Part shown: in pieces, positions 11,655 to 29,811 of the stretch
Numbering within the stretch: position 1 is the first letter of the stretch
Layout: every line of letters starts with the position of its first letter
Source: Pseudomonas sp. B6002
GTDB taxonomy: Bacteria; Pseudomonadota; Gammaproteobacteria; Pseudomonadales; Pseudomonadaceae
Reading direction: 5' to 3'
Assembly: GCF_013385985.1 (NCBI RefSeq)
Contig: NZ_JACAOY010000004.1
Location: 523,129-587,128 of the forward strand
Length of the DNA stretch: 64,000 bases
The notes under the pieces: generated by a model
Seen by the model: the letters and a program-made list of their open reading frames with translations, nothing else
What the model was told of the DNA's origin: nothing
The model's database searches: none
Program-made: the position numbers and the translations under genes

Positions 11655-11696
11655 TGCGCTTTCAAACATTTAGAAACATCTGCCACTGAAACATTT

Positions 11697-11724
11697 GGAA
11701 CGCCTTGTTGCTAAACACCACACA
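11697..11724 (+). promoter_or_regulatory. hrp box before the candidate pilin operon
   Basis: GGAACG-N15-CCACACA, against the HrpL consensus GGAACC-N15/16-CCACNNA: one mismatch in the -35 element and a perfect -10 element. About 100 bases before the ATG at 11827. It should drive the pilin-hrpB-hrcJ-hrpD-hrpE transcript. Confidence 0.82.
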
Positions 11725-11826
11725 ACTGGAGCCAGGCTCAAGGCGTTATTGAAATGCCAAGGCATAAATATGGCTTGGCCGACGGCGAACGTGTATCCCC
11801 TTCAAACATTGCAGCTGGAGTTTATT

Positions 11827-12018
11827 ATGTCCATTCAAGGTTTATCCCCCCTCAATACCAACAGCTTCCTGCCCGGCTCTGGAACAAAACCTGGCACAGG
11901 AAATAGCAGTGATGATCTGCTGGATAAAGCGGAGGCCATTGCTCGGGAGGGTTTCGAGCTGAGCCTGAAAGCCAAACAAATCACCAACAAATATGCGGCA
12001 GCTAAAGAAGTTCGCTAA
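11827..12018 (+). CDS. Small T3SS protein, candidate Hrp pilin (HrpA position)
   Basis: 63 residues, no signal peptide. The N-terminal half is rich in Ser, Gly, Pro, Thr and Asn (MSIQGLSPLNTNSF). The C-terminal half is a predicted amphipathic helix rich in Ala, Lys and Glu (about 28-63). This unstructured-plus-helix layout, the hrp box upstream and the location as first gene before hrpB match hrpA, which encodes the Hrp pilus subunit. P. syringae HrpA is about 110 residues and I see no convincing identity to it, so the assignment rests on position and composition. It could be another small secreted protein. Confidence 0.55.
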   Translation: MSIQGLSPLNTNSFLPGSGTKPGTGNSSDDLLDKAEAIAREGFELSLKAKQITNKYAAAKEVR

Positions 12019-12135: not shown

Positions 12136-12504
12136 ATGAAGATAGAAAAACTTGACTTTTCAGTGCGACAAAACGGCCTTGAAGAAGCCGTTAACACACC
12201 AAGTCATTCAGCGTCCAATACAGACGTCGACTTTTTCACCGCATCGCTGAACCGCTCAGGAGCGACTACCACTCGGGTAGACAATCCTCCAGGACCTTCG
12301 CTGCTGACAGAGGCCGGACAACACGTCAAGGCCTTGGAAACCCGTCTTGCGCACGCACTCAAGTCAACCAACAAAGGCTCCGATCCAGACGATTTCAAGC
12401 AGTACCCACGTGAACTATCCAACGTCATACTGACCTCCCAACTGCTGGTAAAAAGCCTGGGCAAAGCCACTCAATGCCTCGACAAAATCTGCAACTTGCA
12501 ATAA
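12136..12504 (+). CDS. hrpB: T3SS inner-rod protein HrpB
   Basis: 122 residues, close to P. syringae HrpB. SctI/YscI family: forms the short inner rod linking the export gate to the extracellular filament. The N-terminus is polar and low in complexity; the C-terminal ~40 residues are helical and end LVKSLGKATQCLDKICNLQ, like the conserved rod C-terminus. Its TAA overlaps the hrcJ ATG (TAATG). In P. syringae the harpin gene hrpZ lies between hrpA and hrpB; here only 117 bases separate them. Confidence 0.8.
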   Translation: MKIEKLDFSVRQNGLEEAVNTPSHSASNTDVDFFTASLNRSGATTTRVDNPPGPSLLTEAGQHVKALETRLAHALKSTNKGSDPDDFKQYPRELSNVILTSQLLVKSLGKATQCLDKICNLQ

Positions 12505-13310
12505 TGGCCATGAATAATTTCCTGCCTGTCGTGTTACTCCTGGCGGCTGCACTGATGTTGGGTGGCTGCAGCGATCGTGTCGAACTTCATCGCCAACTTT
12601 CCGAGCAAGAGGCCAATGAGGTCATCGCAGAGTTGGCCGACAAACACATTCGCGCGCAGAAAATCCCGGCCAAGGATGGCGTCACCGTCGCCGTCAATGC
12701 CGTCGACATCGGGCGCGCCGTACGCACGCTGGAAGCCGCCGGATTGCCTCGAGCGGCACGCACTACACTGGGTGACACGTTTCGCAAGGAGGGCGTCATT
12801 TCCACGCCGCTGGAAGAGCGCGCGCGCTACATCTATGCCCTGTCCCAAGAGCTTGAGGCCACCCTGTCCAATATTGACGGTGTGATCGTTGCGCGTGTGC
12901 ACGTGGTGCTGCCGGAACGTATAGCACCGGGTGAACCGGTCCAACCCGCGTCCGCGTCGGTATTCATCAAACATGACCCGCGCCTGGACCCCGATAACAT
13001 CCGTGCCCGCGTACGCAGGATGGTCGCGAGCAGTATCCCGGGCATGACCGCTGCGGTGGACAACCCGCAAAAGCTAAGCGTGATTTTCGTGACCGCCACT
13101 GCCTATCAGGAACAGCAACGCCTGACTTACTTCGGCCCGTTCCTGGTGCCCAACGATGACCTCCAGTTCTGGCGAACCAGCGCAACCCTTTTTCTGCTCA
13201 GCCTAGTGGCCGTCACCCTCGCGGCATCATTCCTGTTTGCACGACGCCAGCGCGCGCGGCAAGGGAGGCCTGTAGCAGGCGAATCAATCGGCCCTGCCCA
13301 TGACGCCTAG
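12504..13310 (+). CDS. hrcJ: T3SS inner-membrane ring lipoprotein HrcJ
   Basis: 268 residues. SctJ/YscJ family: forms the periplasmic ring of the basal body with SctD. A lipoprotein signal ends MLGGC (Cys22). The two ring-building domains follow, with the family segment RARYIYALSQELEATLSNI and VARVHVVLPER. A C-terminal membrane helix (about 228-246) is followed by an Arg-rich cytoplasmic tail. The start overlaps the hrpB stop and the end overlaps the hrpD ATG, so translation is tightly coupled. Confidence 0.95.
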   Translation: MAMNNFLPVVLLLAAALMLGGCSDRVELHRQLSEQEANEVIAELADKHIRAQKIPAKDGVTVAVNAVDIGRAVRTLEAAGLPRAARTTLGDTFRKEGVISTPLEERARYIYALSQELEATLSNIDGVIVARVHVVLPERIAPGEPVQPASASVFIKHDPRLDPDNIRARVRRMVASSIPGMTAAVDNPQKLSVIFVTATAYQEQQRLTYFGPFLVPNDDLQFWRTSATLFLLSLVAVTLAASFLFARRQRARQGRPVAGESIGPAHDA

Positions 13311-13870
13311 CATCGATCAGTCGGCGAGCGAGCATTTGGCCTGGGCCCAATGGTGGGCGTTCCCCTGGAAGTACGCCCACGAAGACTGGCGAGATGACGC
13401 TCATCGTGCGATGGATGCGCTCCACTGTAGCGGGGGATGGGCCTCCTGCACGCTCCACGGTGTTGTCGCCTGCCTGCCTCCGGAGCCTCACACCACCGTG
13501 CTCCGTCTGGCCCTCGCGTCCACGGAACAACTCGATTTGGCGCTGACACTGGTTCACGACACCTTCAACCCGCAAGCCTCGTCAGTCTTGAGCGACAGTC
13601 ATCAGCTGTGGTGCACACGACTTTCCAAGGCCCTGCCTCCTGCGCTGCCACTGCGCGATGCCGACCCGTTGCAATTGCTCTACAGCTGGGTAGCGACCTC
13701 CACCTGGCAGCGCCTGCGATTGCGCTTTCCCCGTGGGCGCGTGCAAGAAGCAGAAAAAAAAAATCTCCGTCGAGGGAGCAACCAGCCAACTGAACACACT
13801 CTGGCAAGCCGTCGTCTGGCGGGTGACGACAACGGCAACCGACGCCATCCCCCTCGGCTCGAACGTGTAA
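13300..13870 (+). CDS. hrpD: T3SS protein HrpD, frame interrupted at an A10 run
   Basis: The ATG at 13300 lies inside the 3' end of hrcJ. The first ~151 codons look like HrpD (SctK-like sorting-platform accessory protein). At 13754-13763 there are ten A in a row. In the annotated frame, translation then runs through an Arg-rich stretch without family features and continues in frame into hrpE, giving a 400-residue joined product. With one A fewer the frame instead reads KKISVEGATSQLNTLWQAVV and on to DAIPLGSNV, stopping at the TAA at 13868-13870, for a 189-residue HrpD ending just before the hrpE ribosome binding site. The second reading is far more protein-like. Coordinates given are for that reading. 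Confidence 0.7.
13754..13763 (+). other. A10 homopolymer, probable slippage or frameshift site in hrpD
   Basis: Ten consecutive A within the codons GAA AAA AAA AAT. Loss of one A restores the natural HrpD C-terminus. Runs of 9-10 A in bacterial coding regions are known to support RNA polymerase slippage, including in Shigella T3SS genes. A sequencing or assembly error, or a true mutation, would look the same here. Confidence 0.6.
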
Positions 13871-13881
13871 GGAGAACGCCG

Positions 13882-14502
13882 ATGCTATGCCGACACTCCC
13901 TTGAATTGCCCAGCGGCGCCTCTGGTTTGCCACGCAACCTGATCCTCCGTGAAGAGCTTAAGGACTGGGACCAGGCCAACCATATTTTACGCCACGCCAG
14001 TGCCCAGGCCGGCGAGCTGATAAGCCAGGCCGAAAGAAAATGTGAAGCGCTGCAGCAAGAGGCCTCGCTGCAGATCTGGCAGCGCGCAGATACCCAACTC
14101 AAGCAGTGGGATCTCGACCGTCAGGCGATGTGTGACAGCCTCGAACACTATGCGACCCGCATCACCCAGCAAGCGATGCGCAGCCTGCTTGACGACATCG
14201 CGCCTCCTCAAAGGCTGGCAGCCTTGCTCAAGCAACTACTGGCCAGCCAAGTTCAGGAAATCAACGCGACGCTGCTGTGTCATCCCCATGACGTTGAAGA
14301 GATCAAACAGTGCCTCAGCCTTCGCAATGCCACGTATTGGAAGCTTCACACCGACGAAGCAGTCCGGCCTCAGACACTCGTTTTGCAAACCGACGAGGGC
14401 GACTTCCGAATCAGTTGGAACTCACTGCTCGAAGCGTTCTTCAACACCAGTAAAGAGTACTTGGATTACGACCTGAAAGTACGCGAGCCAGCGTTTTCAT
14501 AA
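13882..14502 (+). CDS. hrpE: T3SS ATPase stator protein HrpE
   Basis: 206 residues from the ATG at 13882, preceded by AGGAG at a normal distance. SctL/YscL/FliH family: a dimeric stator that binds the HrcN ATPase and couples it to the C-ring sorting platform. The N-terminal half is rich in Ala, Glu and Gln and predicted coiled coil (ILRHASAQAGELISQAERK). The C-terminal part resembles the V-ATPase E-subunit fold. Because hrpD and hrpE share a frame, an interrupted hrpD runs directly into this gene, but the internal start should still give free HrpE. Confidence 0.82.
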   Translation: MLCRHSLELPSGASGLPRNLILREELKDWDQANHILRHASAQAGELISQAERKCEALQQEASLQIWQRADTQLKQWDLDRQAMCDSLEHYATRITQQAMRSLLDDIAPPQRLAALLKQLLASQVQEINATLLCHPHDVEEIKQCLSLRNATYWKLHTDEAVRPQTLVLQTDEGDFRISWNSLLEAFFNTSKEYLDYDLKVREPAFS

Positions 14503-14781: not shown

Positions 14782-14954
14782 ACGCTGGTCGGTGAGTGGC
14801 TCAGAGCCTGCGCGGGTCGTGCGATCAGGCCACTCTCTTCGGTTGCCTCCAGGCGCTGCTCAACCAACGCGACACCTGGCGCTCCACTGCCGCGCGCCCT
14901 GTTCGGCCGGCCCTGAACCTCAAACCTATCTCGCTTCGCTCGCCGTCTTACTAA
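14782..14954 (+). pseudogene. Possible decayed hrpG between hrpF and hrcC
   Basis: Group I clusters carry hrpG (about 140 codons) here. Only 195 bases separate hrpF from hrcC. Protein-like pieces occur in three different frames in order: TLVGEWLRACAGRA (from 14782), then TLFGCLQALLNQRDTW, then EPQTYLASLAVLLI near 14920-14960. The succession looks like a small helical protein broken by frameshifts and shortened. A 52-codon GTG reading frame (14796-14954) also exists. The evidence is position and composition only. Confidence 0.35.
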
Positions 14955-14968
14955 TAAGAGAACCCCTC

Positions 14969-17107
14969 ATGTTTAACCCCCCCTCCCAGCACACAGGCTT
15001 GCGCGTTGACTCAACGCGCTTATCGTCAAAACGAACGGGATGGCGGTGCCTGGTCGCACTGCCCTGCTTGCTGATGCCCGTAGTCAGTACCTACGCCGCC
15101 ATTCCTTCCGAATGGAAAAATACCGCTTACGCCTACGAGGCCCAACATAAACCGCTGCGAGAAGTGCTCGAAGACTTTGCGCAGACCTTTGGCACGCAAC
15201 TGCAAGTGGAGGGGCTACTGGAGGGCAACGTCAACGGAAAGATTCGCGCCAACACCCCACAGTCATTGCTTGATCGGCTGGGGGTCGAACATCGCTTCCA
15301 GTGGTATCTGTACAACAACACGCTCTATATCAGCTCTCTGGATCAACAGGAATCTGCACGTTTGGAGGTTTCTTCCGAAACCATCGCGGACCTCAAAAAA
15401 GCACTCACGGATATTGGCCTGCTCGACAGCCGCTTCGGCTGGGGCGAACTCCCCGAAGATGGCGTCGTCCTGGTCTCCGGCCCGAGGAGCTATATCGAAC
15501 AGATCAGGCATTTCAGCAGCCAACGCCGCTCACCGGAAGAAAAGCAAAGCGTGCTCAGCTACCCGCTGAAGTTTGCCAACGCAACGGATCGCCAAGTGGA
15601 ATATCGCGGTGAAAAGCATGCCATTCCCGGCGTTGCTAGCATTTTACGCGGGTTGTTGGAGCCCCGCTCCACCTCGGCCCTTTCGGGGCTTGGCCAACGG
15701 CCCCCTGCACAACCCTCCCCCCTTGCGCCAAACATTCCCCGACTGAACAACCCACTGCTCGGGCAGATGATTGGTGTAAACGGCAACCCTGCGCAATTGG
15801 AGACAGGCGGCACGCTCACCCCACGCGCACCAGCCCCCTCCAGCCGGATTCGCGTCGAAGCTGACGTGCGCAACAACGCGGTGCTGATCTACGATTTGCC
15901 GGAGCGCCAAGCCCTGTACCGCGAGTTGATCGCTCAGCTCGATGTCGCCAGCAAGCTGATAGAGATCGATGCCATTATCCTCGACATCGAGCGTACGCAA
16001 TTACGCGAGTTCGGCGTGAACTGGGGTTTCCAGAACAGTCGTTTCCGTGGCCTCGGCACCAACCAGGCTCCCGGCACCAGCTCTCAGTTATCGATTGAAA
16101 ATCGTGATCGCTTCTACGCGGATATACGCGCACTTGAAGCCAAGGGACTGGCAACCATGGTCTCCAACCCCTCGGTCCTCACCCTGGAAAACCAGCCGGC
16201 GGTCATCGACTTCAACCGCACTCAGTACCTGACGCCCGGCAGAGAAAACGCAACCATTCTGCCGGTCACCGTGGGGACCAGCTTCCAGGTCGTACCGCGT
16301 GTCATCACCAGTCGCGGTGGTCACCAGATCCACTTGGCGGTGGATATTGAAGATGGGAATTTCGACGAGACCAACCCCACGCCAGGCCAGCTGGATGTGC
16401 GCCGAGGCAAGGTCAGCACCCAGGCAGTAATAGCCGAAAAACGCTCGCTGGTGGTGGGTGGATTCCATGTCACCGAAAGCACCGACAAGCAGAACAAGGT
16501 GCCTCTGCTGGGGGACATTCCGCTGCTGGGCAAGGCGTTGTTTTCCTCGACCGAACGACAAAACAATCGACGTGAGCGCCTGTTTATCCTCACCCCGCGC
16601 GTCATCGGCGACCAGTCCGACCCCTCGCGCTATTTGCCCCAGGCCGACCAAGCCGATCTGCAAGCGGCGCTCACACCGCTCGCCAGGCGCTACAGCTCTC
16701 ATCAGCCGGTGATCAATCGCAACGACGTTATCAGCACCCTGGCGCACCTGGTCAGCGGGCAAGTCCCCCAGGCCTTCAAAGCGGCACCGATGCCACTAGG
16801 GCTGCGGACATTATGCAACACGCGCGAATTGCTGGCGCTGAACGAAAATCGCAGCCAATGGTATGCCGGCCCCGAGTACAACGTGGCAGTCGTGGTGCTG
16901 CGTAACCAGTTCAACCGCAATGTGCGTATAGACGAAAAAGAATGCAGCAACTCGCAGACACTGGCAGTCAGCGCGTGGCCGCGTGCCTGGCTCAAGCCCG
17001 GTGAGGAAGCCGAAGTCTTTATCGCGATGCGCCCGGTGGTAAAGGACGAACACCTCAGCGTACCCCGTCCTTCCTTGATCACTCCAGCTCAGAAGGCCAA
17101 GCCATGA
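14969..17107 (+). CDS. hrcC: T3SS outer-membrane secretin HrcC
   Basis: 712 residues from the ATG at 14969. SctC family: forms the gated outer-membrane ring. A long positively charged signal region ends near VSTYA, followed by N-terminal ring domains (NTAYAYEAQHKPLREVLEDFA, the usual SctC start of N0). The C-terminal secretin core contains EIDAIILDIERTQLREFGVNWG and the conserved VPLLGDIPLLGKALF. After the core comes an extra C-terminal region of about 150 residues, probably the pilotin-binding part. The frame is open further upstream but that part encodes no signal peptide. Confidence 0.95.
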   Translation: MFNPPSQHTGLRVDSTRLSSKRTGWRCLVALPCLLMPVVSTYAAIPSEWKNTAYAYEAQHKPLREVLEDFAQTFGTQLQVEGLLEGNVNGKIRANTPQSLLDRLGVEHRFQWYLYNNTLYISSLDQQESARLEVSSETIADLKKALTDIGLLDSRFGWGELPEDGVVLVSGPRSYIEQIRHFSSQRRSPEEKQSVLSYPLKFANATDRQVEYRGEKHAIPGVASILRGLLEPRSTSALSGLGQRPPAQPSPLAPNIPRLNNPLLGQMIGVNGNPAQLETGGTLTPRAPAPSSRIRVEADVRNNAVLIYDLPERQALYRELIAQLDVASKLIEIDAIILDIERTQLREFGVNWGFQNSRFRGLGTNQAPGTSSQLSIENRDRFYADIRALEAKGLATMVSNPSVLTLENQPAVIDFNRTQYLTPGRENATILPVTVGTSFQVVPRVITSRGGHQIHLAVDIEDGNFDETNPTPGQLDVRRGKVSTQAVIAEKRSLVVGGFHVTESTDKQNKVPLLGDIPLLGKALFSSTERQNNRRERLFILTPRVIGDQSDPSRYLPQADQADLQAALTPLARRYSSHQPVINRNDVISTLAHLVSGQVPQAFKAAPMPLGLRTLCNTRELLALNENRSQWYAGPEYNVAVVVLRNQFNRNVRIDEKECSNSQTLAVSAWPRAWLKPGEEAEVFIAMRPVVKDEHLSVPRPSLITPAQKAKP

Positions 17108-17527: not shown

Positions 17528-18625
17528 TCAGCGCTGATCAAGCTCGGGGATTTCCAGCGTCTCACGCTTGGCCTCATCGTCCAGCTCACGCAAGGTGCGA
17601 TAGATCAGCGCCACCGCCTGCAAGGTTTCGCGGGGAATGCTCGCACCCAACTCTTTTGTATAGATCGTGCGCGCCAGCCATATACACTGGATCACTGGCA
17701 CCTCAGCGGCCTTGGCACGATCGATCAGCCTGCGAGCCTCGTCGTCCGTGCCCTTGCTCACCAGCAGCGGAAGCGGTGTTTTACCAGGGCGGTAATACAA
17801 GGCGACCGCATAGTGCGTCGGGTTGACCACCAGCATGTCCGCCTCCTCCAGCTTGGGCAGCTTTACCTTCGGTTCTTCCTGGGCCAATTGCTGCGCCAAT
17901 GCGCGGCGCTGGCCCTTCACATGCGGGTCGCCCTCCATGTCCTTGTACTCTTTGACGACCTCAACCTGGGTCATACGCATGCGCTTGGCAAAAAAATGCC
18001 TCACCATCATCAGGTCGATAAGCGCCAGTATCAACAACAGGCCGAGGCAGGCATGCAGCAAGTGCCGAAACAGCACGATCAACGCCAGGATGTAACTTTG
18101 CAGGTCACTGTTGGCCAAGTTGATCAACGCCCCCAAAGAGGGCCAGACCACCAAATACACAGTCATCCCTATCAGAAACGCCTTGGCGATACTCATCAAC
18201 AGGTTCATCAGCGACTGAGCAGAAAACATCTGCTTGATCTGGCTGACCGGGTTCAGGCGATTGAAGTCGGGCTTGAGGCTTTCTGGCGCAAACAATAATC
18301 CGAACTGCATCCAGCTGCTGATGAGCTTCACAGCAATCGCCACCCCTGCCATCAACACAGAGAATGAGAAAAACACAATCAGGCTTTCAACCAGCACCTC
18401 CTCCAGAGCCCGTGCAAACGGCTGATTCAGGTCCGAGATCGGCAATATCATCAACTGCTGGAACCGTTGCAGGCTGCTCTCGGCCGTGAACAGAGCGATT
18501 TCACTGATCGACGTCAGCACCAGTAACTTACCGACGTCCTGACTTTGGGCGACTTGGCCTTTCTTGCGTTGATCACGCAGCTTCTTGGCTGACGCCGGGT
18601 GCTTCTTTTCCCCTGAATCACTCAC
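17528..18625 (-). CDS. hrcU: T3SS export apparatus switch protein HrcU
   Basis: 365 residues from the GTG at 18625, which overlaps the hrcT stop (GTGA). SctU/FlhB family: four membrane helices, then a cytoplasmic autoprotease domain that sets substrate order. The N-terminus has the typical EKKHPASAKKLRDQRKKGQ. The self-cleavage motif NPTH is at 268-271 and intact. Last gene of the leftward arm, converging on hrpT. Confidence 0.96.
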   Translation of the reverse strand: MSDSGEKKHPASAKKLRDQRKKGQVAQSQDVGKLLVLTSISEIALFTAESSLQRFQQLMILPISDLNQPFARALEEVLVESLIVFFSFSVLMAGVAIAVKLISSWMQFGLLFAPESLKPDFNRLNPVSQIKQMFSAQSLMNLLMSIAKAFLIGMTVYLVVWPSLGALINLANSDLQSYILALIVLFRHLLHACLGLLLILALIDLMMVRHFFAKRMRMTQVEVVKEYKDMEGDPHVKGQRRALAQQLAQEEPKVKLPKLEEADMLVVNPTHYAVALYYRPGKTPLPLLVSKGTDDEARRLIDRAKAAEVPVIQCIWLARTIYTKELGASIPRETLQAVALIYRTLRELDDEAKRETLEIPELDQR

Positions 18626-19416
18626 GGCAGTGACGCCTTGAAGAGCAGCCCCAGCGAATGCCTGAGGTCGCCCAGTTGGCTCATGCGCCCGACGATGAGG
18701 TCCTGCAACAACGCAAAGTACACCAGTAAAATGCCGATACCCGCCAGGCACTTGACGGGGGGCGCCAGCGTACTCACCTGTAGCTGCTGGCTGTAAACCC
18801 CCAGCAGCGCGATACCGAACTCCAGCAACAGCAGCACCGCGATAAAAGGCGCGGCGTAGAGCATCATGTGGGTGAAGGTGTCGCCCAGCAATCCGACGAA
18901 TACGCCCATACCATTCGGTGCCGGCAGCGGAAACCATACGGTGGGCGGCCAGATCAGGTAGCTGTCCCAGATCACCTGAGTCAACGTCCCCAGTCCTAGC
19001 GTGACGATCAGAAGGAAAATCGCCAACTGCTTGAACAAGTGCCCGATCGGCGTCGCATCCGGGCCCAGTGAAGGATTAAGCTGCCCCCCCGCCAAGGCTC
19101 CACGCTGGTTATCGAGCAGCGCTCCCACCGATTCGAACATCCAGAACGGCATCGACAGCAGCACGCCCAACAGGAGACCCAGGGCCACTTCCTTGAGCAC
19201 CAGTGCACCAAGCATCAAAGCGGAGTATTCCTCGACCGCCAATACGGCATGAATACCCGGCGCAGGCATCAACGCCATGACCATCACGATGGTGTGCCGG
19301 AGCATGCCGCGTATGTGTTGAAAGCAGAACGCTGCCACCAAAATGGCACAGGGGTAGATGCGCGCCATGCCGATCACCAGGCTGGGCAGGTACTCAAGAT
19401 AAAGCAGCACAGGCAA
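18622..19416 (-). CDS. hrcT: T3SS export apparatus protein HrcT
   Basis: 264 residues, SctT/FliR family, a polytopic inner-membrane part of the export gate complex with R and S. About six hydrophobic helices are visible. Starts with TTG at 19416, four bases after the hrcS stop, so translation is probably coupled. Its end overlaps the hrcU GTG. Confidence 0.94.
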   Translation of the reverse strand: MPVLLYLEYLPSLVIGMARIYPCAILVAAFCFQHIRGMLRHTIVMVMALMPAPGIHAVLAVEEYSALMLGALVLKEVALGLLLGVLLSMPFWMFESVGALLDNQRGALAGGQLNPSLGPDATPIGHLFKQLAIFLLIVTLGLGTLTQVIWDSYLIWPPTVWFPLPAPNGMGVFVGLLGDTFTHMMLYAAPFIAVLLLLEFGIALLGVYSQQLQVSTLAPPVKCLAGIGILLVYFALLQDLIVGRMSQLGDLRHSLGLLFKASLP

Positions 19417-19420
19417 CGCC

Positions 19421-19684
19421 TCAGTTCAGGGCCGAGCGGCCAATCATGTCGAAGGTCAGGTTGATCAACTGGATCAACTCGACCCCAATCCAGCGACCGG
19501 TCAGGATCAGCGTGATGCCCACGGCAACCAACTTGATGCCAAAGGGCAGCGTCTGGTCCTGTATCTGCATCAACGCCTGCACCAGGGACGTCAGTACACC
19601 CACCACCACCGCCACAATCAGCGGCGGCGCCGACAGGACGACCACCAACAGCATGCCCTGCTTGAACAACACGATCGGTTCCAT
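19421..19684 (-). CDS. hrcS: T3SS export apparatus protein HrcS
   Basis: 87 residues, the normal SctS/FliQ size, with two membrane helices (about 13-37 and 50-70) separated by the conserved polar segment ALMQIQDQTLPFGIKL. Member of the SctRST export gate. Seven bases after hrcR. Confidence 0.95.
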   Translation of the reverse strand: MEPIVLFKQGMLLVVVLSAPPLIVAVVVGVLTSLVQALMQIQDQTLPFGIKLVAVGITLILTGRWIGVELIQLINLTFDMIGRSALN

Positions 19685-19691
19685 AGGGCAC

Positions 19692-20345
19692 TCAGAGGTA
19701 GGAAAGGAACAGGCTGTCGAGCAAGCGCGACCACCCCGACACCAGCACGAACAACAGCAACTTGAGCGGCAGTGAAATGGTCATCGGCGAGACCATTTGC
19801 ATCCCCAGCGCCAGCAGCAGATTGGAGACAATCAGATCAATTACGATGAAGGGAATGTAGATCAGAAAACCGATCTCAAATCCCGCCTGCAATTGTGACA
19901 ACACAAACGCCGGCACCAACAGGATCAAGTCCTCGCGCTGCACGTCCTGCGCCATTTGTGCAGGCCACAGGCGTGCGGTGTTGTCCAGCAAGTGCGTCAA
20001 CGTGTCCGGGTCCACATTGCGCAACATGAAGGCACGCAGCGGTTTGATGGCCTCGCTTCCCGTCTGCAAAAACGTTTGCACATTGCTCATGTCCAGGGGC
20101 GAGACCTTGATGCTTTCGGCAATCTCGTAGCCCACTGGAGCCATGATAAAGAGAGTTGCCGCAAGCGCGATGCCGTTGATGGCCATGCTCGGCGGCACCT
20201 GCTGCACACCGATGGCGTTGCGGGTAATCATCAGCACAATGACAATTTTCAAGAACGATGTGCAGACGATCAACAACAGGGGCATCAACGAAAGCGCCCC
20301 CAGAAACACCGCAAGAATGAGGGGATCCAGCCCCTGGATATTCAT
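19692..20345 (-). CDS. hrcR: T3SS export apparatus protein HrcR
   Basis: 217 residues, SctR/FliP family, the pentameric core of the export gate. Hydrophobic segments lie near residues 10-35, 50-70, 155-180 and 185-210. Family signatures are [14 protein letters not shown] and [23 protein letters not shown] overlaps the hrcQ stop. Confidence 0.96.
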
Positions 20346-20644
20346 CGACCGAACATCACACGGGACAACTGCAACCCCAGGCGCCCATCAACTTCCACCA
20401 GTTGCCCCTGAGCAATCGAGCGGTCGCCATAATAGAGACCTGCCATGCCCGGGGCGTAGCCGGCAATACCCAGCACCGCACCGGGCGCAAGGTTACGCAG
20501 CTCACCCAAGGTGAGGTTGAGCGTTCCGCAGCGTACCGTCAGAGCCATGCTCAACTCATCGAAAGGCTCGTCACCGAATACATCCACCACCGGTTCATCC
20601 TTCTCATGCCCCGAGTAGTGGGGAGCAGTAAAATTGTCGTCCAC
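20342..20644 (-). CDS. Predicted internal HrcQ C-terminal product (HrcQB-like)
   Basis: In-frame GTG at 20644, residue 238 of HrcQ, with GAGGAG (complement of 20651-20656) six bases upstream, an ideal ribosome binding site. The product would be 100 residues: an acidic linker and the whole SpoA domain. YscQ, SpaO and SsaQ are known to make such C-terminal fragments from internal starts, needed to build the C-ring, and P. syringae has a separate HrcQB. Prediction from sequence only. Confidence 0.55.
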
Positions 20645-21355
20645 GGACGTCTCCTCGATAGCAGTAAGGGTCATGCACACCGCGCCATTGGCATCGTCAA
20701 TACACCCTCGCAAGCACCGTCTGCCGGCGCGTACATAGCCCGTCCCGCAGGCCTGAAAAAAGCGCTGTTCAAGCAACAACACATCACCGGTGCGTAGCGC
20801 TTGTGCCTGCCTTACCGGCAATTGCAAACGCCCGAGCGTCACGGCAATCGCCAACTGAAACGACGCCGTCATCGGCTCTGCAGTCGGGCGCCACGGGCCG
20901 GACGCGTGTAACGCCAGGAAGCTTTCGGCAGCAAGCCACAGGTAGCCCACGACGCGAGATGCCCCCAGGCTCACAGTGATCTGGCAGCCGAACCCGACCG
21001 GGCGATCAACCTCCAGCAGTCGCACTGTGCCCAGCAGCGTTCGTACCTGCGGGCTCAGGTGGTGCTGGAATAACGCCCAAAACCAGGGATTTGAATCGTT
21101 ACCCGCCTGGGCCAACGTGACCGGGCATTCGCCCAGCAAGCTGAGCAGCGGTCCGGCCTGCGCAAGCGCGAGCACACCACACTGGGTTTCAAGGCAGACG
21201 ACGTCGCCTCCGGTGGGCGGCCGCCCGGGTTCCAGGCGCAGCTCACCGTCTTGCCCAGCCACTTGAAAGGGCATGCACAAGCCACGGCCCAATCGACGGC
21301 GAGCAGCAACGATGTCGCTCTTAATCCAAGGCAACACCAGCGACGGCACTATCAT
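20342..21355 (-). CDS. hrcQ: T3SS C-ring protein HrcQ, single-gene form
   Basis: 337 residues from the ATG at 21355, which overlaps the hrpP stop (ATGA); an ATG five codons upstream is also possible. SctQ/YscQ/FliN family, cytoplasmic sorting platform under the export gate. The C-terminal ~70 residues form the SpoA domain ([20 protein letters not shown] and then [14 protein letters not shown]). In P. syringae this protein is split into HrcQA (~240) and HrcQB (~135); here the two are in one frame. An in-frame GTG with a strong ribosome binding site at 20644 could still give the short form. Confidence 0.93.
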
Positions 21356-21810
21356 GTCAACCTTATGCAAGGTAAATGCAGGCTGACCGGCAGCCCCAGC
21401 GCCGCTGCCAAGCGGCCTTCACATCGTTGCCGTACACCACTGAGCCAGCGTGCCGTTGCGTCTTGCTCAGGTTCCAGCTCAATGGCCCAGGCGCCTTGCT
21501 CACGACGCACGCTGGCGTTGATCCGCCCAAGCCTGGGCAGGTACAACACCGCCTGAAGCGGCCACTGCGCCCCCATTTGCATACGAGGGAGCAATAGGTC
21601 TGTGAGGGCGCCAATCAAGGTGGCATCGGCAATCGGTTTCGCCTTCAGCAGAGAGGGTCCCCTCCCTGCGCCATCGTCCCGGCCCGCGAACAGCTGGGCG
21701 AATAATCGCCCTTGCTCCCAAGGCACGACACCGGCGCCGATGGGCTCACGGTCCTCGCGTATTTCACGTAGCCGTGGGTACTCAGTGGGCTTATTGGAAA
21801 TCTGTTTCAC
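21352..21810 (-). CDS. hrpP: T3SS substrate-specificity protein HrpP
   Basis: 152 residues. Located between hrpO and hrcQ, as in P. syringae, where HrpP is a secreted ruler/switch protein of the SctP/YscP family that works with HrcU. The C-terminal half (about 80-150) has the predicted T3S4 globular fold with LPRLGRINASVRREQGAWAIEL. The N-terminus is polar and disordered. Somewhat shorter than P. syringae HrpP. Overlaps both neighbours by four bases. Confidence 0.78.
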   Translation of the reverse strand: MKQISNKPTEYPRLREIREDREPIGAGVVPWEQGRLFAQLFAGRDDGAGRGPSLLKAKPIADATLIGALTDLLLPRMQMGAQWPLQAVLYLPRLGRINASVRREQGAWAIELEPEQDATARWLSGVRQRCEGRLAAALGLPVSLHLPCIRLT

Positions 21811-22235
21811 GTTGGCTCCTGCGCCAGTAAAAGGGACAGCTCCTGGAGTTTTTCAACCTGCCGCAGGCACTCGGTGACCTGCTTCTGGGCGCTGCCAACG
21901 CGGGTTGCCTTTTCTTCCTGCTGGCTTTGCAACGCTTCCAGCCGGGCTTTGTCTCGACGGGTATTGGCCGACAAAACGCGCTCCTGCGCGCCCCAGGTTT
22001 TCAGGGCTTGTAAGGTCATCACCTGGCCCTGGTATTGGCTGAGCAGTTGAGCACTTTCCCGGGCCTCGTCCTGCCGGCTTTCTTCAAGCGTGCCGTTGGC
22101 CTGCTCTATATGGGCAAGCAGCGTTTGCTGGGCTCGCTTCGCCTCACGCAGACTACGTTCGGCCCGGTCTGCCCGGTGCCTGCGCAGGCGTCGAAGTGTC
22201 TCCACATCGCCTGGCAGCACGTCAGAATGGGACAT
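21807..22235 (-). CDS. hrpO: T3SS ATPase stalk protein HrpO
   Basis: 142 residues, almost entirely coiled coil (Glu, Gln, Arg, Ala and Leu heptads), as in the SctO/YscO/FliJ stalk that enters the HrcN hexamer. Its ATG lies 14 bases inside the end of hrcN. Assignment rests on composition, size and the conserved order hrcN-hrpO-hrpP. Confidence 0.82.
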   Translation of the reverse strand: MSHSDVLPGDVETLRRLRRHRADRAERSLREAKRAQQTLLAHIEQANGTLEESRQDEARESAQLLSQYQGQVMTLQALKTWGAQERVLSANTRRDKARLEALQSQQEEKATRVGSAQKQVTECLRQVEKLQELSLLLAQEPT

Positions 22236-23580
22236 GTGCGGTCAGCTCCTGAATGTGCTCCAGCGTCATCGCCATGGGCGTGGGCTCACGCAAGTCCTGG
22301 CGCAGAAAAGCATCGACCGCCTGGCGGCTGTCCACCGCCAGGTCGGTCAGGGCATCAGTGCCAGGCTGGTATTCCCCCAGCTTGAGCATCAACTCGATCT
22401 GCTGGTAAGCCGACAACAAGCGTCGCAATGCGGTGCCGGCGCGAATATCTGCCGGTGAGACAACGTTACTCAAGATTCGCGACAGGCTCGCCAGCACGTC
22501 CACTGCCGGATAGTGCCCACGCTCGGCCAACTTGCGAGACAACACGATATGACCATCCAGCAGTGAGCGAACCTCATCGGCGACCGGATCGTTCATGGAG
22601 TCCTGTTCGATCAGTACCGTGTAGATCGCCGTGATCACCCCCTCACGGGTCAACCCGGCGCGCTCCACTAAACGGGGTAACAGGCTGTAGACTGACGGCG
22701 GAAGACCACCGCGGCCCAACGGTTCACCCGCCGCCAGACCGATTTCACGCTGCGCCCTGGCGAAACGGGTCAGTGAGTCGATCAGCAGCAACACCCGCAG
22801 CCCCTTGCGTCGAAAACCTTCAGCCAGGGCCGTAGCGGTGAATGCCGCACGCGCACGCTCCATGCTTGAGCGATCGGAGGTAGCGCACACCAATACCGCT
22901 TTGGCACGCAGTTGCTCATCCAACTCATGGTCCAGAAACTCACGCAACTCACGGCCCCGTTCACCGATCAGGCCGAACACGATCACATCGCACTCAACGT
23001 TACGGGCGATTTCGGCCAGCAAGGTGGTCTTCCCGCAACCCGCCCCGGCAAACAGCCCGACACGCTGGCCTTCACCCAACGTCAACAAGCCATCGATCGA
23101 ACGGACTCCGGTGGCCAGCGCGCGGTGGATCCTCGGACGTTCAGTGGGCAACGGTGCTTCACACAGCACTGCACTCGTATCCGGCAAGTCCGTCTCGACA
23201 AAGGCACTGGCGCCCTCCCCCGTGATGGGCCGGCCGAAACCGTCCAACACCTGGCCCAGCAACGCATCGCTGACCTTTACCCGATGCGCCACACCCAGGC
23301 GTTCAACGCTGGCCCCCACCCGCACGCCTTCCAGGTTACCCAGGGCACTGAGCACCGCATCCTGCTGATCGAAGCCAATGATCTCGGCGAGCATGCAATC
23401 ACCCGGGGTTTTCTCGACCTGGCACAAGTCTCCAATACGCGCCAGGGGCAGACGGCACTGCAGCAGCATGCCATTGACGCGCTGGATGCGACCGCGCATC
23501 GTCACCGGCGCAAAAGCCGCCAGTGACTGAGCCTGGCGTTGCTGCCAGGCCTCTAGACGCGCTTGCAGTTCCAGGCTCAC
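22222..23580 (-). CDS. hrcN: T3SS ATPase HrcN
   Basis: 452 residues. SctN/FliI family, a hexameric F1-beta-like ATPase that unfolds and releases substrates from chaperones. Walker A GAGCGKTT is at 179-186; the Walker B region reads RVLLLIDSLTRFARAQREIGLAAGEP, a T3SS/flagellar signature. Overlaps hrpQ by four bases upstream and hrpO by 14 downstream. All catalytic motifs intact. Confidence 0.97.
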   Translation of the reverse strand: MSLELQARLEAWQQRQAQSLAAFAPVTMRGRIQRVNGMLLQCRLPLARIGDLCQVEKTPGDCMLAEIIGFDQQDAVLSALGNLEGVRVGASVERLGVAHRVKVSDALLGQVLDGFGRPITGEGASAFVETDLPDTSAVLCEAPLPTERPRIHRALATGVRSIDGLLTLGEGQRVGLFAGAGCGKTTLLAEIARNVECDVIVFGLIGERGRELREFLDHELDEQLRAKAVLVCATSDRSSMERARAAFTATALAEGFRRKGLRVLLLIDSLTRFARAQREIGLAAGEPLGRGGLPPSVYSLLPRLVERAGLTREGVITAIYTVLIEQDSMNDPVADEVRSLLDGHIVLSRKLAERGHYPAVDVLASLSRILSNVVSPADIRAGTALRRLLSAYQQIELMLKLGEYQPGTDALTDLAVDSRQAVDAFLRQDLREPTPMAMTLEHIQELTAHVPF

Positions 23581-24479
23581 CAGCGCACCTCATACCGCTG
23601 AGCACCGTCAAATATCACTTTGCTGTTATCGATCGACACCAGGCGCAGTCCTTCCACCTCATCGCCCACGAACAACCGGGTCCCCTCTTCCAGAACCACA
23701 TGGCCATTCGGCCCGCCGACGATCTGAACGATCTTGAATGGCAACGCGCTGTCGCGCGCACGTACACGACTGAGTACCGGTACAGCGCTTTCGAACTGTT
23801 CTCCAAAACGGCTGAGCATCCGTGCCACCAGGTCCACATCGTCTTGGGAGACATCCCCACTGAGCGTCACCTGGCCATTGATGACTTGCAGGGAAACGCG
23901 CTGGCCCAGCTCACGCTCGCCCAGCATCTTCAACAACTGCTCGCGCACTTCAAACGGCGAGGCCAGCTCACGTTTCTGGACGGCCTGCGGCATCAGGGAA
24001 GCCTGGGCCTCGGGCTCCCCTGTAGAGGCCATGCCCACCAGAATGAAGATCACCGTTATCACCAGCACCACAGTAATCAGGCGCTTTTGTTGTGGAGGGG
24101 AAATGGACGATAAATTGAGGGTTGGCGTCGGCTCAGTGGCAGGAGCTGACGCCACGGGAGCCTGGGTAGGTGCCGGCGGCCAAGGCTCATCAGCCAAGGT
24201 GACACAGAGCCGTACACACCCCACGCAAAACACAGCGTTCGGTGCCAGGCTCGCAATCTGCGCCAAAACCTGCCCATCGGCGCCTTGCAACAGCCCCGCT
24301 TCAGCCTGTACCGACCAGTTCGCTCCGACCAGCAGCAGCCGAGCATGCTGCTGGGCAACACCAGGATCATTGAGCATCAGGTCGGCATCGGCATGGGCAC
24401 CGATGCTCCACTGCTCACCGAACAGCGGCAGTGCAGCCCCTTGACACAAACCGTCCAAAACACGCAGTTCAAACATCAC
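23577..24479 (-). CDS. hrpQ: T3SS inner-membrane ring protein HrpQ (SctD)
   Basis: 300 residues. SctD/YscD family, outer of the two inner-membrane rings. The N-terminal ~95 residues form a cytoplasmic FHA-like domain (GEQWSIGAHADADLMLNDPGV), followed by a Pro/Ala linker, one membrane helix near residues 130-150 and periplasmic ring domains with the BON-like VQKRELASPFEVREQL segment. Directly follows hrcV with a 34-base gap. Confidence 0.88.
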   Translation of the reverse strand: MMFELRVLDGLCQGAALPLFGEQWSIGAHADADLMLNDPGVAQQHARLLLVGANWSVQAEAGLLQGADGQVLAQIASLAPNAVFCVGCVRLCVTLADEPWPPAPTQAPVASAPATEPTPTLNLSSISPPQQKRLITVVLVITVIFILVGMASTGEPEAQASLMPQAVQKRELASPFEVREQLLKMLGERELGQRVSLQVINGQVTLSGDVSQDDVDLVARMLSRFGEQFESAVPVLSRVRARDSALPFKIVQIVGGPNGHVVLEEGTRLFVGDEVEGLRLVSIDNSKVIFDGAQRYEVRW

Positions 24480-24513
24480 CGGCGCCTCGATCGATTAGTA
24501 AATACCCACCGGC

Positions 24514-26607
24514 TCATGCCTGTGCCCCACGCATCAAATCAACCTGAGCAAGGTCAAAACGCCCCAGTACTTTTACCTTGGAGCTGCTTCCCAGCTCCGC
24601 GAACGACAGCACCGGCACGTAGTTGAATTCTTCGAGCAGCAATGTCCGCAGCGGGCTGCGCAAGTCCTGGGCGACCAGCATCACACTTTTGAGTTTGGGC
24701 CGAACGGTAAAAGCCTGGTTGAGCAGGTTGATCAGGGCTGAGCTGTGCTCGTCGTCGAGCGCAAAGAAGACACCGGTCTGGGTCTGGCGCAGCGCGTCAC
24801 GCAACGTGCTTTCGGTTTGAGGCGAGAGCAACCAGGCATGGAGGCCATCCGCTTCACTGTACTGATGCATGATCTGCGCTTTGAGGGCGATACGCGCGTA
24901 ATCAGCCAGTGCCTCGGGTTCGCGCTCATGCTGGCCAAACTCGATCAGCGACTCCACGATCAGGCGCACGGCACGCAGTGGAACGCCTTCACTCGCCAGG
25001 CGTTGCAACACCGCCGAGAACCTCGAGAGAGGCATAATGCGCTGCAGCTCCTGAACGAGTTCCGGCTGGTTATGCTCCAGCCAACTGAGGATCGATTTGC
25101 TTTCCTGGATACCCAGGAACTGCGGCCCACTGAGCATCATGGCCTGCTTCATGCGTTGGAGTATCAGGTCCGTTGCAGTGAAGCGCTCCAACTGCGGGTC
25201 ATCGAGCAGTGGATCATCCGGCGCCAGCCAGAGCCAGCCCTGCTCGTCACGTTCCGCCAGCCCAGGCACGCCGTGTTCGGGTACGACGGTGAACGCGTTA
25301 CGGTCCACGGCCACCCGAGAAACGACCGAGGCTTTCACCATCGGCACCTCATGGACGCAAAAACGCATTTCATCATCCGCCAGCGCGGCATCGAGCTCGA
25401 CCTCGAACGGGGGTAGCGTCAGACCAATGTTGGCCACTAGCGCGTTACGGGACTGGCGGATCCCGTGAATCAGGTCCGTCACCTCGGGGGTGCCTCGCAA
25501 CACCGGCGAAAACTGCAACAGATAAGGCCGCGACGGATCGAACCCGCGCAAATCTTCGCTACCGTTCTCCTCGGGACGAACCGCCTCGGAAGCCTCGTTT
25601 GCCGGGCGCTCCTGGCGCTGACGTTGGCGTACCAGGTAATAGCCGAGCGTGCCGGTGATCAGCGAGATAAAGATGAACACTCCCGTTGGCATGCCAGGCA
25701 CGGCCGCGAACGCGAGCATGCCCACCGAGGCGATGATCCAGCTCTTGGGCTCACTGGTCATTTGCCGGGCGATTTCGGCGCCCATGTTGGTAATGCCCTT
25801 GCGCCCATCCGGCGCCACGCGGGTGATGATCATGCCCGCAGTCAGGGAAATCAGCAGCGCCGGAATCTGGGCAATCAAGCTATCACCGATGGTCAGTACC
25901 GAGTACAAGGCCATAGACTCGCCAGCGCTCAGGCCGTGCTGGAACATGCCCGTGGAGAAGCCGCCCAGCAGGTTGACCACCACAATGATCAAGCCGGCGA
26001 TGGCATCCCCTTTGACGAATTTCATAGCCCCGTCCATAGCCCCGAACAACTGGCTTTCCCGAGACAATTGCTCACGCTTGTCCCGCGCCTGAATGCCGTC
26101 GATCAGGCCGGCACGCAAGTCGCTGTCGATGGACATCTGCTTGCCGGGCATCGCATCGAGGCTGAAACGCGCCGCGACTTCCGCGACCCGCTCCGAGCCC
26201 TTGGTAATCACCAGAAAGTTGACCAGGGTGAGGATCAGAAAGATCACCATCCCTACCGCCAGATTGCCACCCACCACGAAATTGCCAAACGCTTCGACGA
26301 TATCACCCGCGTCTTGCTCCAGCAGGATCAGGCGCGTGGTCGCAATCGAAAGCGCCAGGCGAAACATGGTGGTCAACAGCAGAATCGACGGAAACGACGA
26401 GAAAGCCAGCGGCCCGGGCAGGTACAACGCCAGCACGATCAACAGGCAGGAGATGCAGATGTTGAGCGCGATCAGGATATCCACCAGCCAGGTGGGCAAC
26501 GGTACGATAAAAATGAAAACGATCGCCATGACCACCACGGCGCCCAAGACTTCGGCGCGCTGTGCGACTTTGAGCAGCACTGCATTGATGGTCGACAGCA
26601 CGGTCAC
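24514..26607 (-). CDS. hrcV: T3SS major export apparatus protein HrcV
   Basis: 697 residues. SctV/FlhA family, nonameric export gate. About eight membrane helices occupy the first ~320 residues, including the FHIPEP-family type segment AARFSLDAMPGKQMSIDSDLR. The large cytoplasmic domain (about 360-697) docks chaperone-substrate complexes. Overlaps hrpJ by four bases. Complete and normal in length. Confidence 0.97.
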   Translation of the reverse strand: MTVLSTINAVLLKVAQRAEVLGAVVVMAIVFIFIVPLPTWLVDILIALNICISCLLIVLALYLPGPLAFSSFPSILLLTTMFRLALSIATTRLILLEQDAGDIVEAFGNFVVGGNLAVGMVIFLILTLVNFLVITKGSERVAEVAARFSLDAMPGKQMSIDSDLRAGLIDGIQARDKREQLSRESQLFGAMDGAMKFVKGDAIAGLIIVVVNLLGGFSTGMFQHGLSAGESMALYSVLTIGDSLIAQIPALLISLTAGMIITRVAPDGRKGITNMGAEIARQMTSEPKSWIIASVGMLAFAAVPGMPTGVFIFISLITGTLGYYLVRQRQRQERPANEASEAVRPEENGSEDLRGFDPSRPYLLQFSPVLRGTPEVTDLIHGIRQSRNALVANIGLTLPPFEVELDAALADDEMRFCVHEVPMVKASVVSRVAVDRNAFTVVPEHGVPGLAERDEQGWLWLAPDDPLLDDPQLERFTATDLILQRMKQAMMLSGPQFLGIQESKSILSWLEHNQPELVQELQRIMPLSRFSAVLQRLASEGVPLRAVRLIVESLIEFGQHEREPEALADYARIALKAQIMHQYSEADGLHAWLLSPQTESTLRDALRQTQTGVFFALDDEHSSALINLLNQAFTVRPKLKSVMLVAQDLRSPLRTLLLEEFNYVPVLSFAELGSSSKVKVLGRFDLAQVDLMRGAQA

Positions 26608-27668
26608 GCCAGCGCCCCTGCGCCGAAACGCTGGTTCTCCAAGCGCTCGCTCTGGGTCAGTTGGTCCATGACGATCAGCAGGAGTTTCACGCTGTCCTTA
26701 CGCACGCCCTCATCTGGCCAAACAGCCAGGGGCAACTGTCGGAAAGCAGGGTAAAGACTATTGAGGACCATCAGCCTCTGCGAAGGTTGCTCGCATCGAA
26801 GCTCACTCAGCAGGTCCGGGATTTCGTTCCCACCGAGGCCGGTGCTGGTACAGGCCAACAAGCGCTTGAGCAGAGTGACGGGGTCAAACTCGTCATTCAA
26901 ACGCTGGACCAGGGCCTGGCAACTGGAAAATACGCCGCCCAATTGACTGCAACTTCCCAACCCCTTCAACAGCGAGCGCAACGCCGCCGGGGAAATCGAA
27001 GAGGCGCGGGCGGCCATGTCGTCGGCCAATGCCCCGCGCATCACATTCAAGCCGTTCAGGAACCGCTCGCCACCATATGCGTCCAGCAGCGCATGCAACA
27101 TCACGGTCAGGGATTGGCGATTGACCACGCTGTTGTAATACAACTCGCGCATCGCCTGACGCTCCTTCGGGTCATCGGTGGCAGCCAGCAACGCCACAGC
27201 AATGTTGAGGCCCGCCTGGATTTCGCCTTTGAAGCCTTTCTCCAGATCGGCGAGGATCGTCCGCGCCATTTTGGTCTCGGCGGTGTGCACCTGCGCATCC
27301 GCCTGTTCGATCACATGCTTGAGCACCACGAATGCACGCGCCGGATCCCCGTCGGTGAGGTCGATCAATTTGCCGACGCTCAATTGCTGCTTCAGCAATT
27401 CTGCCCAGATGCGTCGGGAAACAGAGGTCAGTGACGCGTTGGCCGGGTGCCCCAGCTGGTCATACAGCTGGGCAATATGCTGGACAGCCGGAATTTGCAC
27501 GCCGTTCGACCGCCTGCTCAACTCCCGCGCGGTATCCGCCAACGCCTGGCCAAAGATCGGAATCGACTCATTGCCTCCCGCAGGGGCAGACGGCGCGTGA
27601 GCATCTCGAAGACCCGGCTGATCCAGGTGCTGGATCGGTTGCACATCGTTGGAAGATTCGATTTTCAT
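26604..27668 (-). CDS. hrpJ: T3SS gatekeeper HrpJ
   Basis: 354 residues from the ATG at 27668. SctW/YopN-InvE family: controls the switch from early to late substrates and in P. syringae is itself secreted. The N-terminus is polar; the rest is helical repeats. The frame is open upstream to a GTG at 27713, but that start lies inside the hrp box, so translation from it is excluded if the box is the promoter. No strong Shine-Dalgarno precedes the ATG. First gene of the eleven-gene leftward operon. Confidence 0.88.
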   Translation of the reverse strand: MKIESSNDVQPIQHLDQPGLRDAHAPSAPAGGNESIPIFGQALADTARELSRRSNGVQIPAVQHIAQLYDQLGHPANASLTSVSRRIWAELLKQQLSVGKLIDLTDGDPARAFVVLKHVIEQADAQVHTAETKMARTILADLEKGFKGEIQAGLNIAVALLAATDDPKERQAMRELYYNSVVNRQSLTVMLHALLDAYGGERFLNGLNVMRGALADDMAARASSISPAALRSLLKGLGSCSQLGGVFSSCQALVQRLNDEFDPVTLLKRLLACTSTGLGGNEIPDLLSELRCEQPSQRLMVLNSLYPAFRQLPLAVWPDEGVRKDSVKLLLIVMDQLTQSERLENQRFGAGALA

Positions 27669-27698
27669 CGGCAGACCCGAACAGGAAGAGTGTGTCCC

Positions 27699-27727
27699 TG
27701 TGTGGCAAGCCACTGTGACCTGGTTCC
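27699..27727 (-). promoter_or_regulatory. hrp box before hrpJ
   Basis: On the minus strand GGAACC-N16-CCACACA, a perfect match to the HrpL consensus. It ends 31 bases before the hrpJ ATG. Expected to drive hrpJ through hrcU. Confidence 0.93.
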
Positions 27728-27931: not shown

Positions 27932-28483
27932 GTGAATATCCCTATTGAAGATTTAGCCCACCTTGTTGGCAGCTCGCCTCAATTCATGCTCCACCTGACA
28001 GACGACCAACAAAAAAAGCTGCGCCGCTTCATTCACAAACGCGTGCTCAACCCGGAAGATGCGGACGATCTTCTGCAACTGACCTACCTGGAAGCCTGGC
28101 GCAACCGCGAGCGCTTCTGCGGTAATGCCACCCTCAGCACCTGGATGTGCGGTATTGCGCAAAACTTGATCCGCAACCATTTCCGGCGCATGTATGCCAA
28201 ACCCGTGCATTGCGAATTCGACGAAGCGTTGTGGCACGGCCAGGAGGACAGCCGGAATCTGGACTGGGAATTCGAGGTCAACCGACGCCTGGAAAAAACC
28301 CTGAGCGCCATCGACCATCTGCCGGCAGAGATGCGCAGGACGTTGTACGCCTCGCTGGAAACCGACGGCAGCTATCAGGACACTGCGGACGTACTGGACA
28401 TTCCGATCGGCACCGTGCGCTCACGCCTGTCGCGGGCACGTGAACAACTTAAGCGCGCCACCCACAACACCATGAACCGATAA
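27932..28483 (+). CDS. hrpL: ECF sigma factor HrpL
   Basis: 183 residues, GTG start with GAGGAAT upstream. An extracytoplasmic-function sigma factor that recognises hrp boxes and turns on the T3SS regulon. Region 2 lies at about 25-95 (NPEDADDLLQLTYLEAWRNR) and region 4 at about 130-178, ending in the helix-turn-helix IPIGTVRSRLSRAREQLKR. Divergent from hrpJ. Probably the counterpart of SBW25 rspL. Confidence 0.94.
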   Translation: MNIPIEDLAHLVGSSPQFMLHLTDDQQKKLRRFIHKRVLNPEDADDLLQLTYLEAWRNRERFCGNATLSTWMCGIAQNLIRNHFRRMYAKPVHCEFDEALWHGQEDSRNLDWEFEVNRRLEKTLSAIDHLPAEMRRTLYASLETDGSYQDTADVLDIPIGTVRSRLSRAREQLKRATHNTMNR

Positions 28484-28879: not shown

Positions 28880-29713
28880 ATGAGCCTTGATGTGTTCGCC
28901 GTCATCATGCTGGGCGCTTTACTTCACGCCACCTGGAACGCGGTGGTCAAGGGTGGCGGCGACAAGCTGCTGACCACCTGCATGATCACTTCCATCGCAT
29001 CACTGATCGCTCTGACGGCCCTTCCGCTTCTGCCACTGCCGGCACGGGAAAGCTGGCCGTTCATTGGCGCCTCGGTGATCCTGCAAGTCGCGTACTTCGT
29101 CCTGGTCGCCGCGACCTACCGCATTGCCGACATGAGCCAGACCTACCCGATCATGCGAGGCACCGCGCCCTTGCTGGTGGCCATCATCAGTGTATTCCTG
29201 CTGGCGGAATCACTGTCAGTGCCGGCTTGGGTCGGCATCGCGATCATTTCCTCCGGCATCTTGAGCATGGCCGTCGCCCCTTCGGCCGGGCATGGCAAAG
29301 GGTTGATGCTGGCGCTGGTCAACGCCGGTGTAATTGCCGGCTACACCCTCATCGACGGCTTGGGCGTGCGCAAGTCCGGAGCGCCGGCGGCGTACACACT
29401 GTGGATCTTCCTGCTGACCGGCATCCCCCTCGCCGCCTGGGCCCTGGCCGCCAGGCGAACGGCGTTCTGCGAATATTGCGTGCGCCACTGGCGCCAAGGC
29501 GTGGTCGGCGGCCTGGGCACCGTGGCGTCCTATGGCCTGGCACTCTGGGCGATGACAGCGGCCCCCATCGCCACCGTCTCAGCCCTTCGGGAAACATCCA
29601 TCCTGTTTGGCGTAGTGATCTCGGCCCTGGTGCTCAAGGAACACCTGACGCGGGTGCGCGTGATTGCGGCCTGCATCATCGCCGCCGGGGCGATGGTGTT
29701 GCGACTGGGCTGA
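28880..29713 (+). CDS. EamA/DMT-family transporter
   Basis: 277 residues with about ten hydrophobic helices in two EamA repeats (roughly 5-135 and 145-275). Drug/metabolite exporter superfamily; the second repeat contains the typical ALRETSILFGVVISALVLKEHL. Substrate unknown; relatives export amino acids or small metabolites. ATG preceded by CAGGAAAC. A short gap separates it from the PhzF-like gene, and the two may be cotranscribed. Confidence 0.85.
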   Translation: MSLDVFAVIMLGALLHATWNAVVKGGGDKLLTTCMITSIASLIALTALPLLPLPARESWPFIGASVILQVAYFVLVAATYRIADMSQTYPIMRGTAPLLVAIISVFLLAESLSVPAWVGIAIISSGILSMAVAPSAGHGKGLMLALVNAGVIAGYTLIDGLGVRKSGAPAAYTLWIFLLTGIPLAAWALAARRTAFCEYCVRHWRQGVVGGLGTVASYGLALWAMTAAPIATVSALRETSILFGVVISALVLKEHLTRVRVIAACIIAAGAMVLRLG

Positions 29714-29811
29714 GCCTGCGCACCTGCGCCCGAAAAAAGACCCCATCTGTACGGCGACGCTCCGGAGTACCGCTGTTAGTGTCCAACCTCCCCCTACACG
29801 GAGTGCCCCCG

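Follow-up and report, generated by a model that had tools for sequence, protein, structure and literature searches.

A run of ten adenines (A10) in hrpD, a gene of the Hrp-type type III secretion system (T3SS) of Pseudomonas sp. B6002, separates two parts of the HrpD protein that lie in different reading frames. The run falls within a 64,000-nucleotide stretch (the window; contig NZ_JACAOY010000004.1, positions 523,129 to 587,128) and recurs at the same position of hrpD in Pseudomonas sp. P7548, the nearest relative found, in which the downstream frame is offset differently. At a probability of about 0.52, we favor the explanation that hrpD is really out of frame in the DNA and that A10 acts as a slippery site, giving transcripts of mixed frame from which some HrpD would still be made.

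A ten-adenine run between two frames of hrpD

The features at the hrpD–hrpE junction are as follows, in window coordinates:

13754..13763, + strand: A10 run, candidate slippery site (sequence; A10 also present at this position in P7548)
13300..13752, + strand: N-terminal part of hrpD (SctK), 151 codons (protein matches and intact-HrpD profile)
13763..13870, + strand: HrpD C-terminal piece in another frame, with the conserved LxTLW helix (profile match, E 3.5e-6)
13300..14502, + strand: open reading frame (ORF) as written, 400 amino acids, comprising the HrpD N-terminal part, the junction and HrpE (ORF reading)
13869..13874, + strand: AAGGAG, the ribosome-binding site of hrpE; it overlaps the stop codon (TAA) of the frame that encodes the HrpD C-terminus (sequence)

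A preliminary description of the sequence had placed A10 within hrpD, had hrpD run in frame into hrpE through a junction devoid of family features, and had put the natural HrpD C-terminus out of frame with a stop beside the hrpE ribosome-binding site, all of which agree with the present analysis. The frame of the hrpD start is open through A10 to the end of hrpE, and the junction of this product has no family match, with the HrpE matches beginning at residue 195 (Pfam) and residue 214 (NCBIfam). The N-terminal part of hrpD itself has no match in Pfam or NCBIfam. With a profile built from 30 intact HrpD sequences, the window genome returned two matches, to model positions 2–152 and 137–179 (E 3.5e-6) of 184, and P7548 likewise returned two, to positions 2–153 and 146–182 (E 1.4e-5); in both genomes the pieces are in different frames that meet at the run. 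The frame from 13763 encodes the LxTLW helix and ends at the TAA at 13868–13870, and a gap of 7 nt separates AAGGAG from the hrpE ATG at 13882. Both genomes have a run of at least nine A or T in coding sequence with conserved coding sequence continuing in a shifted frame behind it. As the profile gave exactly two matches per genome, no second hrpD copy that might take over was found by it in either the window genome or P7548. A separate start for the C-terminal piece was considered and rejected: its frame opens at 13694 and has neither ATG nor TTG, with GTG codons at 13733, 13823, and 13865; the GTG at 13733, the sole start codon ahead of the piece, is unconvincing.

A pattern search for A10 or longer runs on both strands found three sites in the 6.68 Mb of the window genome and two in P7548, for an expectation per genome of ~1 (independent bases) or ~5 (first-order model), with both models built from the composition of the 64-kb window. 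The first-order expectation is 0.05 sites per 64 kb and 0.0003 in the coding strand of a gene the length of hrpD, such that the genome-wide count is ordinary but an A10 in this position, within a conserved gene, is not. In a large share of genomes, coding sequence has been reported to show evident selection against runs of this kind once they reach nine bases (PMC1088944). The window genome and P7548 each also have an M23 peptidase-domain ORF (loci L108 and L113) that runs in frame across an A9, which makes it a further candidate for slippage.

hrpD in the sister species and other relatives

P7548, a strain placed close to P. fluorescens (PMC7374911), shares 91% amino acid identity with the window genome over the hrpD N-terminal part. 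Its A10 is followed by one extra C, and its hrpD as written yields a 164-amino-acid truncation and no fusion. Nine other aligned loci (L046–L054) have two bases more than the window at the run; together with the extra C, this indicates that hrpD is out of frame in each species, with offsets that differ. Within the 6.4 kb compared between the window and P7548, the hrpD break is the only one-base indel within an assigned gene. The aligned blocks between the 64-kb window and P7548, which cover part of the window, hold 69 indels, and the other frame-changing indels among them are intergenic, cancel each other within a gene, or fall at gene edges. Six indel-bearing or neighboring ORFs were checked and each corresponds to one P7548 ORF over its body; the exceptions are two ORFs near 62.3 kb at their N-terminal edges and the ORF at 29227–30591 outside its PhzF part.

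Protein matches to the hrpD N-terminal part occurred in 58 of 200 genus genomes (own genome counted), drawn from collections with one genome per species, and all of the relatives from named genomes (n = 10) were Pseudomonas. The comparison set consisted of 57 loci with both hrpD and hrpE, deduplicated by the opening 300 nt of their profile hits, with the window's own genome and loci matched by the run only excluded. In 56 of the 57, the C-terminal LW motif is in the same ORF as the N-terminal part, P7548 being the exception, and none of the 57 holds hrpD and hrpE in a single ORF. In two loci outside this set (L132 and L133), hrpD and hrpE again occupy separate ORFs, 198–211 and 202–205 codons long from stop to stop. 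Conservation of the run among relatives is divided: A10 is kept in P7548, and each of the remaining 56 loci has nothing longer than A2 to A8 between its hrpD and hrpE matches. Several relatives have Glu-Lys codons with shorter A-runs at the very same place, and as these in-frame runs reach A8, an A10 can arise from ordinary codons. In two of the loci (L069 and L070), an A8 sits in frame at this place of hrpD, possibly an earlier stage of A10.

That the hrpD start at 13300 and the hrpE ATG share one frame was also correctly described, but it is weaker evidence than it appears because the break itself shifts the hrpD start into the hrpE frame. The position of hrpE relative to the HrpD C-terminal piece is the commonest arrangement among the relatives (30 of 57 loci). 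Similarly, in 21 of the 57 the hrpE frame has no stop codon for at least 118 nt ahead of the hrpE profile match, so that the open junction in the window is not special.

Between the window and P7548, the ratio of non-synonymous to synonymous substitution rates (dN/dS) is 0.29–0.30 for the hrpD N-terminal part and 0.16–0.17 for hrpE, and pairs of intact hrpD genes (n = 13) range from 0.13 to 0.29; by these ratios, hrpD is constrained, yet with a value at the upper limit of that range. The two genomes show zero substitutions between 13753 and 13843, with a chance of ~0.01 at the average rate.

Among a further 400 genus genomes, which largely overlapped the first draw, none exceeded 74% DNA identity except the window's own, and a plasmid search returned no match. 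One genus genome (L030) has an hrpD remnant with no hrpE within the fetched flank and is a case of a decayed T3SS. The phage search gave one match, an unannotated contig from human faeces entered in GenBank as "Bacteriophage sp." (MT835794.1, 11088–18019; locus L132), which carries hrpD and hrpE of a Pseudomonas-like T3SS and looks like bacterial DNA filed as phage.

The surrounding secretion cluster

The T3SS cluster occupies ~10.7–28.5 kb of the window. On the forward strand, the order is a sigma-54 activator, SctI, SctJ, hrpD, SctL (hrpE), a small HrpF-like ORF, and SctC. The cluster includes:

12474..13310, + strand: hrcJ (SctJ), overlapping the hrpD start (TIGR02544, E 1.9e-60)
13882..14502, + strand: hrpE (SctL) (TIGR02499, E 5.2e-32; PF06188, E 2.7e-33)
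14792..17107, + strand: hrcC (SctC) (TIGR02516, E 5.5e-123)
17528..27713, − strand: the remaining T3SS genes SctU, T, S, R, Q, O, N, D, V, and W (Pfam/NCBIfam matches)
21352–21810: ORF between SctQ and SctO without assignment (ORF reading)
27932–28483: ORF with sigma-70 domains (domain match)

SctQ scored under its NCBIfam cut-off, with FliMN_C over the Pfam cut-off. Sixteen of the 18 other cluster ORFs match a single P7548 ORF, the exceptions being the ORF at 11695–12018, which is without assignment, and an over-extended SctU start, for which the SctU domain matches in one ORF. The SctW (HrpJ) gene at 26604–27713 is 51% identical to its P7548 counterpart, with SctV beside it at 92% and SctD and SctN at 97–99%; judged from these identities, the gatekeeper gene looks like an allele replacement.

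SctK links the inner ring of the secretion machine to its sorting platform. The position of hrpD between SctJ and SctL is that of SctK, HrpD is listed as SctK in a table of PMC3574062, and the fold of an intact HrpD relative matches PscK; the sequence of the hrpD N-terminal part had no match among solved structures. The C-terminal helix of SctK is not in the same reading frame as the rest of the protein in either the window or P7548.

Slippage and its alternatives

Runs of at least nine A or T are reported to make bacterial RNA polymerase stutter (PMC5009743, PMC6260861, PMC4256274), and several secretion genes are read in this way. In Shigella flexneri, the T3SS genes spa13, mxiE, spa33, and mxiA are read via transcriptional slippage, with an A10 in spa13 and a T9 in mxiE; slippage there yields an extended product and influences the next gene, and in spa13 shifted product amounts to 25–30% (PMC5009743, PMC6260861). 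Those are other genes than hrpD, slippage was measured there and is deduced here, and two offsets in two species are found here. In the type VI secretion system (T6SS) gene tssM1 of Citrobacter rodentium, the C-terminal domain of a secretion-machine component likewise lies out of frame behind poly-A (A11), with 20–25% shifted product and RT-PCR products carrying 10–15 A (PMC4256274). Both forms of TssM1 were shown to be necessary (PMC4256274), whereas the hrpD case is known from sequence. Poly-A frameshifts in Buchnera and Blochmannia, kept between species without visible decay, have been read as slippage-corrected (PMC3017870), though these are AT-rich symbionts with many runs, unlike the GC-rich window genome with its three sites. 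Two T3SS proteins are also fused by a frameshift in Yersinia YopN-TyeA, but at the ribosomal level (PMC5009743), while the hrpD–hrpE fusion is spelled by the DNA as written. Slippage at such runs is thus already established for Shigella and Citrobacter secretion genes, and the SctK of a Hrp system would be a new case: the literature searched, chiefly titles and abstract openings, held no earlier Hrp case of slippage in a Pseudomonas T3SS or of an hrpD frameshift, and the excerpts of PMC7696170 and PMC3711429 make no mention of an hrpD break.

By analogy, RNA polymerase would stutter at A10 and produce a pool of transcripts with mixed run lengths. Most would follow the DNA and give the HrpD–HrpE read-through in the window or truncated HrpD in P7548, and a minority with another run length would encode normal HrpD, including the last helix. 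HrpE would also be translated from its own start, and since its ribosome-binding site overlaps the normal hrpD stop, a slip would tune hrpE translation as well. Because slippage samples all frames, small indels beside the run would be nearly tolerated, which could explain how two sister species keep A10 yet differ in net frame. The preliminary description had slippage as its leading explanation, and we infer the same; the case is strengthened because P7548 keeps A10 with another offset, 16 of 18 other T3SS ORFs look intact, and hrpD is constrained.

Several observations weigh against slippage. Conservation of the run is thin, as only one sister genome carries A10, and both the window genome (51 contigs) and P7548 are drafts. 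No stimulatory hairpin was detected (z −1.59 and −0.13 with 40 and 60 nt upstream, respectively, and +0.22 with 70 nt downstream), and the upstream 60 nt of P7548 fold differently from those of the window. At 0.30, the dN/dS of hrpD slightly exceeds that of every intact pair (n = 13), possibly from mild relaxation, and all three substitutions in the C-terminal piece are non-synonymous in the HrpD frame, located in a variable tail. Slippage in E. coli is weaker at A-runs than at T-runs, and insertions mostly exceed deletions with a direction that depends on run and context (PMC6260861); as the direction varies, the yield of the slip needed by the window is uncertain, and as the two species need different slips, yields may differ between them.

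Among the alternatives, the one to be taken most seriously, though doubtful, is that the break in hrpD is genuine and slippage makes up for it too little to matter, either through a recent loss in each lineage or through DNA-level phase variation by replication slippage. Two species broken at the same run with different offsets are what a mutation hotspot would produce, of the 14 hrpD pairs compared, that of the window and P7548 has, narrowly, the highest dN/dS, and the hrpD remnant without hrpE in L030 indicates that such clusters do decay. Set against this, A10 and a C-terminal piece free of breaks, its conserved helix unchanged, persist in both lineages, most of the T3SS is intact, and, from the precedents, an A10 truly in the DNA should slip to some degree. 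It is unlikely that one or both drafts miscount the adenines and that hrpD is intact in the cell. Homopolymers are a frequent site of sequencing errors, and P7548 was assembled with CLC from Illumina reads (PMC7374911), but the assemblies of two different genomes break in the same gene, they differ by the C beside the run and so beyond the A count, the M23 peptidase-domain ORF crosses its A9 unbroken in both, and no other frame-changing indel falls inside a recognizable gene body in the aligned blocks of the window.

A frameshift made by the ribosome at A10, in place of slippage by the polymerase, is very improbable. It would suit P7548, where the run ends in an in-frame A-AAA-AAC heptamer, a classic ribosomal shift site, but the same kind of shift in the window misses the HrpD C-terminal frame, and no downstream structure stands out. 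Least credible of all is the HrpD–HrpE (SctK–SctL) fusion as the working product; the preliminary description had listed a fusion among the proteins that the locus could yield, and the evidence does not support a designed one. The fusion is the product as written in the window, SctK and SctL are both on the cytoplasmic side of the machine, and two of the three substitutions between the run and the hrpE start region are synonymous in the frame into hrpE, a very small count that leans, if anything, toward fusion. The fusion was nonetheless rejected as the main product on its absence from all 57 relatives' loci; in addition, the P7548 product is a truncation, the fusion is without the last SctK helix, and the shared frame follows from the break. 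Under slippage at A10, the fusion looks like a by-product.

A more specific and tentative form of the slippage explanation is that hrpD has become frame-agnostic: A10 arose in a Glu-Lys-rich stretch, slippage supplies enough HrpD in any frame, and the sister species drifted to different default products, a fusion in one and a truncation in the other. Slippage would then set the dose of HrpD and, via the overlapping start, of HrpE, and might limit the number of sorting platforms per cell.

If hrpD is indeed read through slippage, slippage-controlled secretion machines would extend from the Shigella T3SS and the Citrobacter T6SS to the Hrp system of Pseudomonas, with SctK as a new component. The window genome and P7548 would constitute a natural species pair with the same run in two net frames, and gene callers would be annotating hrpD in such genomes as fused or truncated although a normal product is made.
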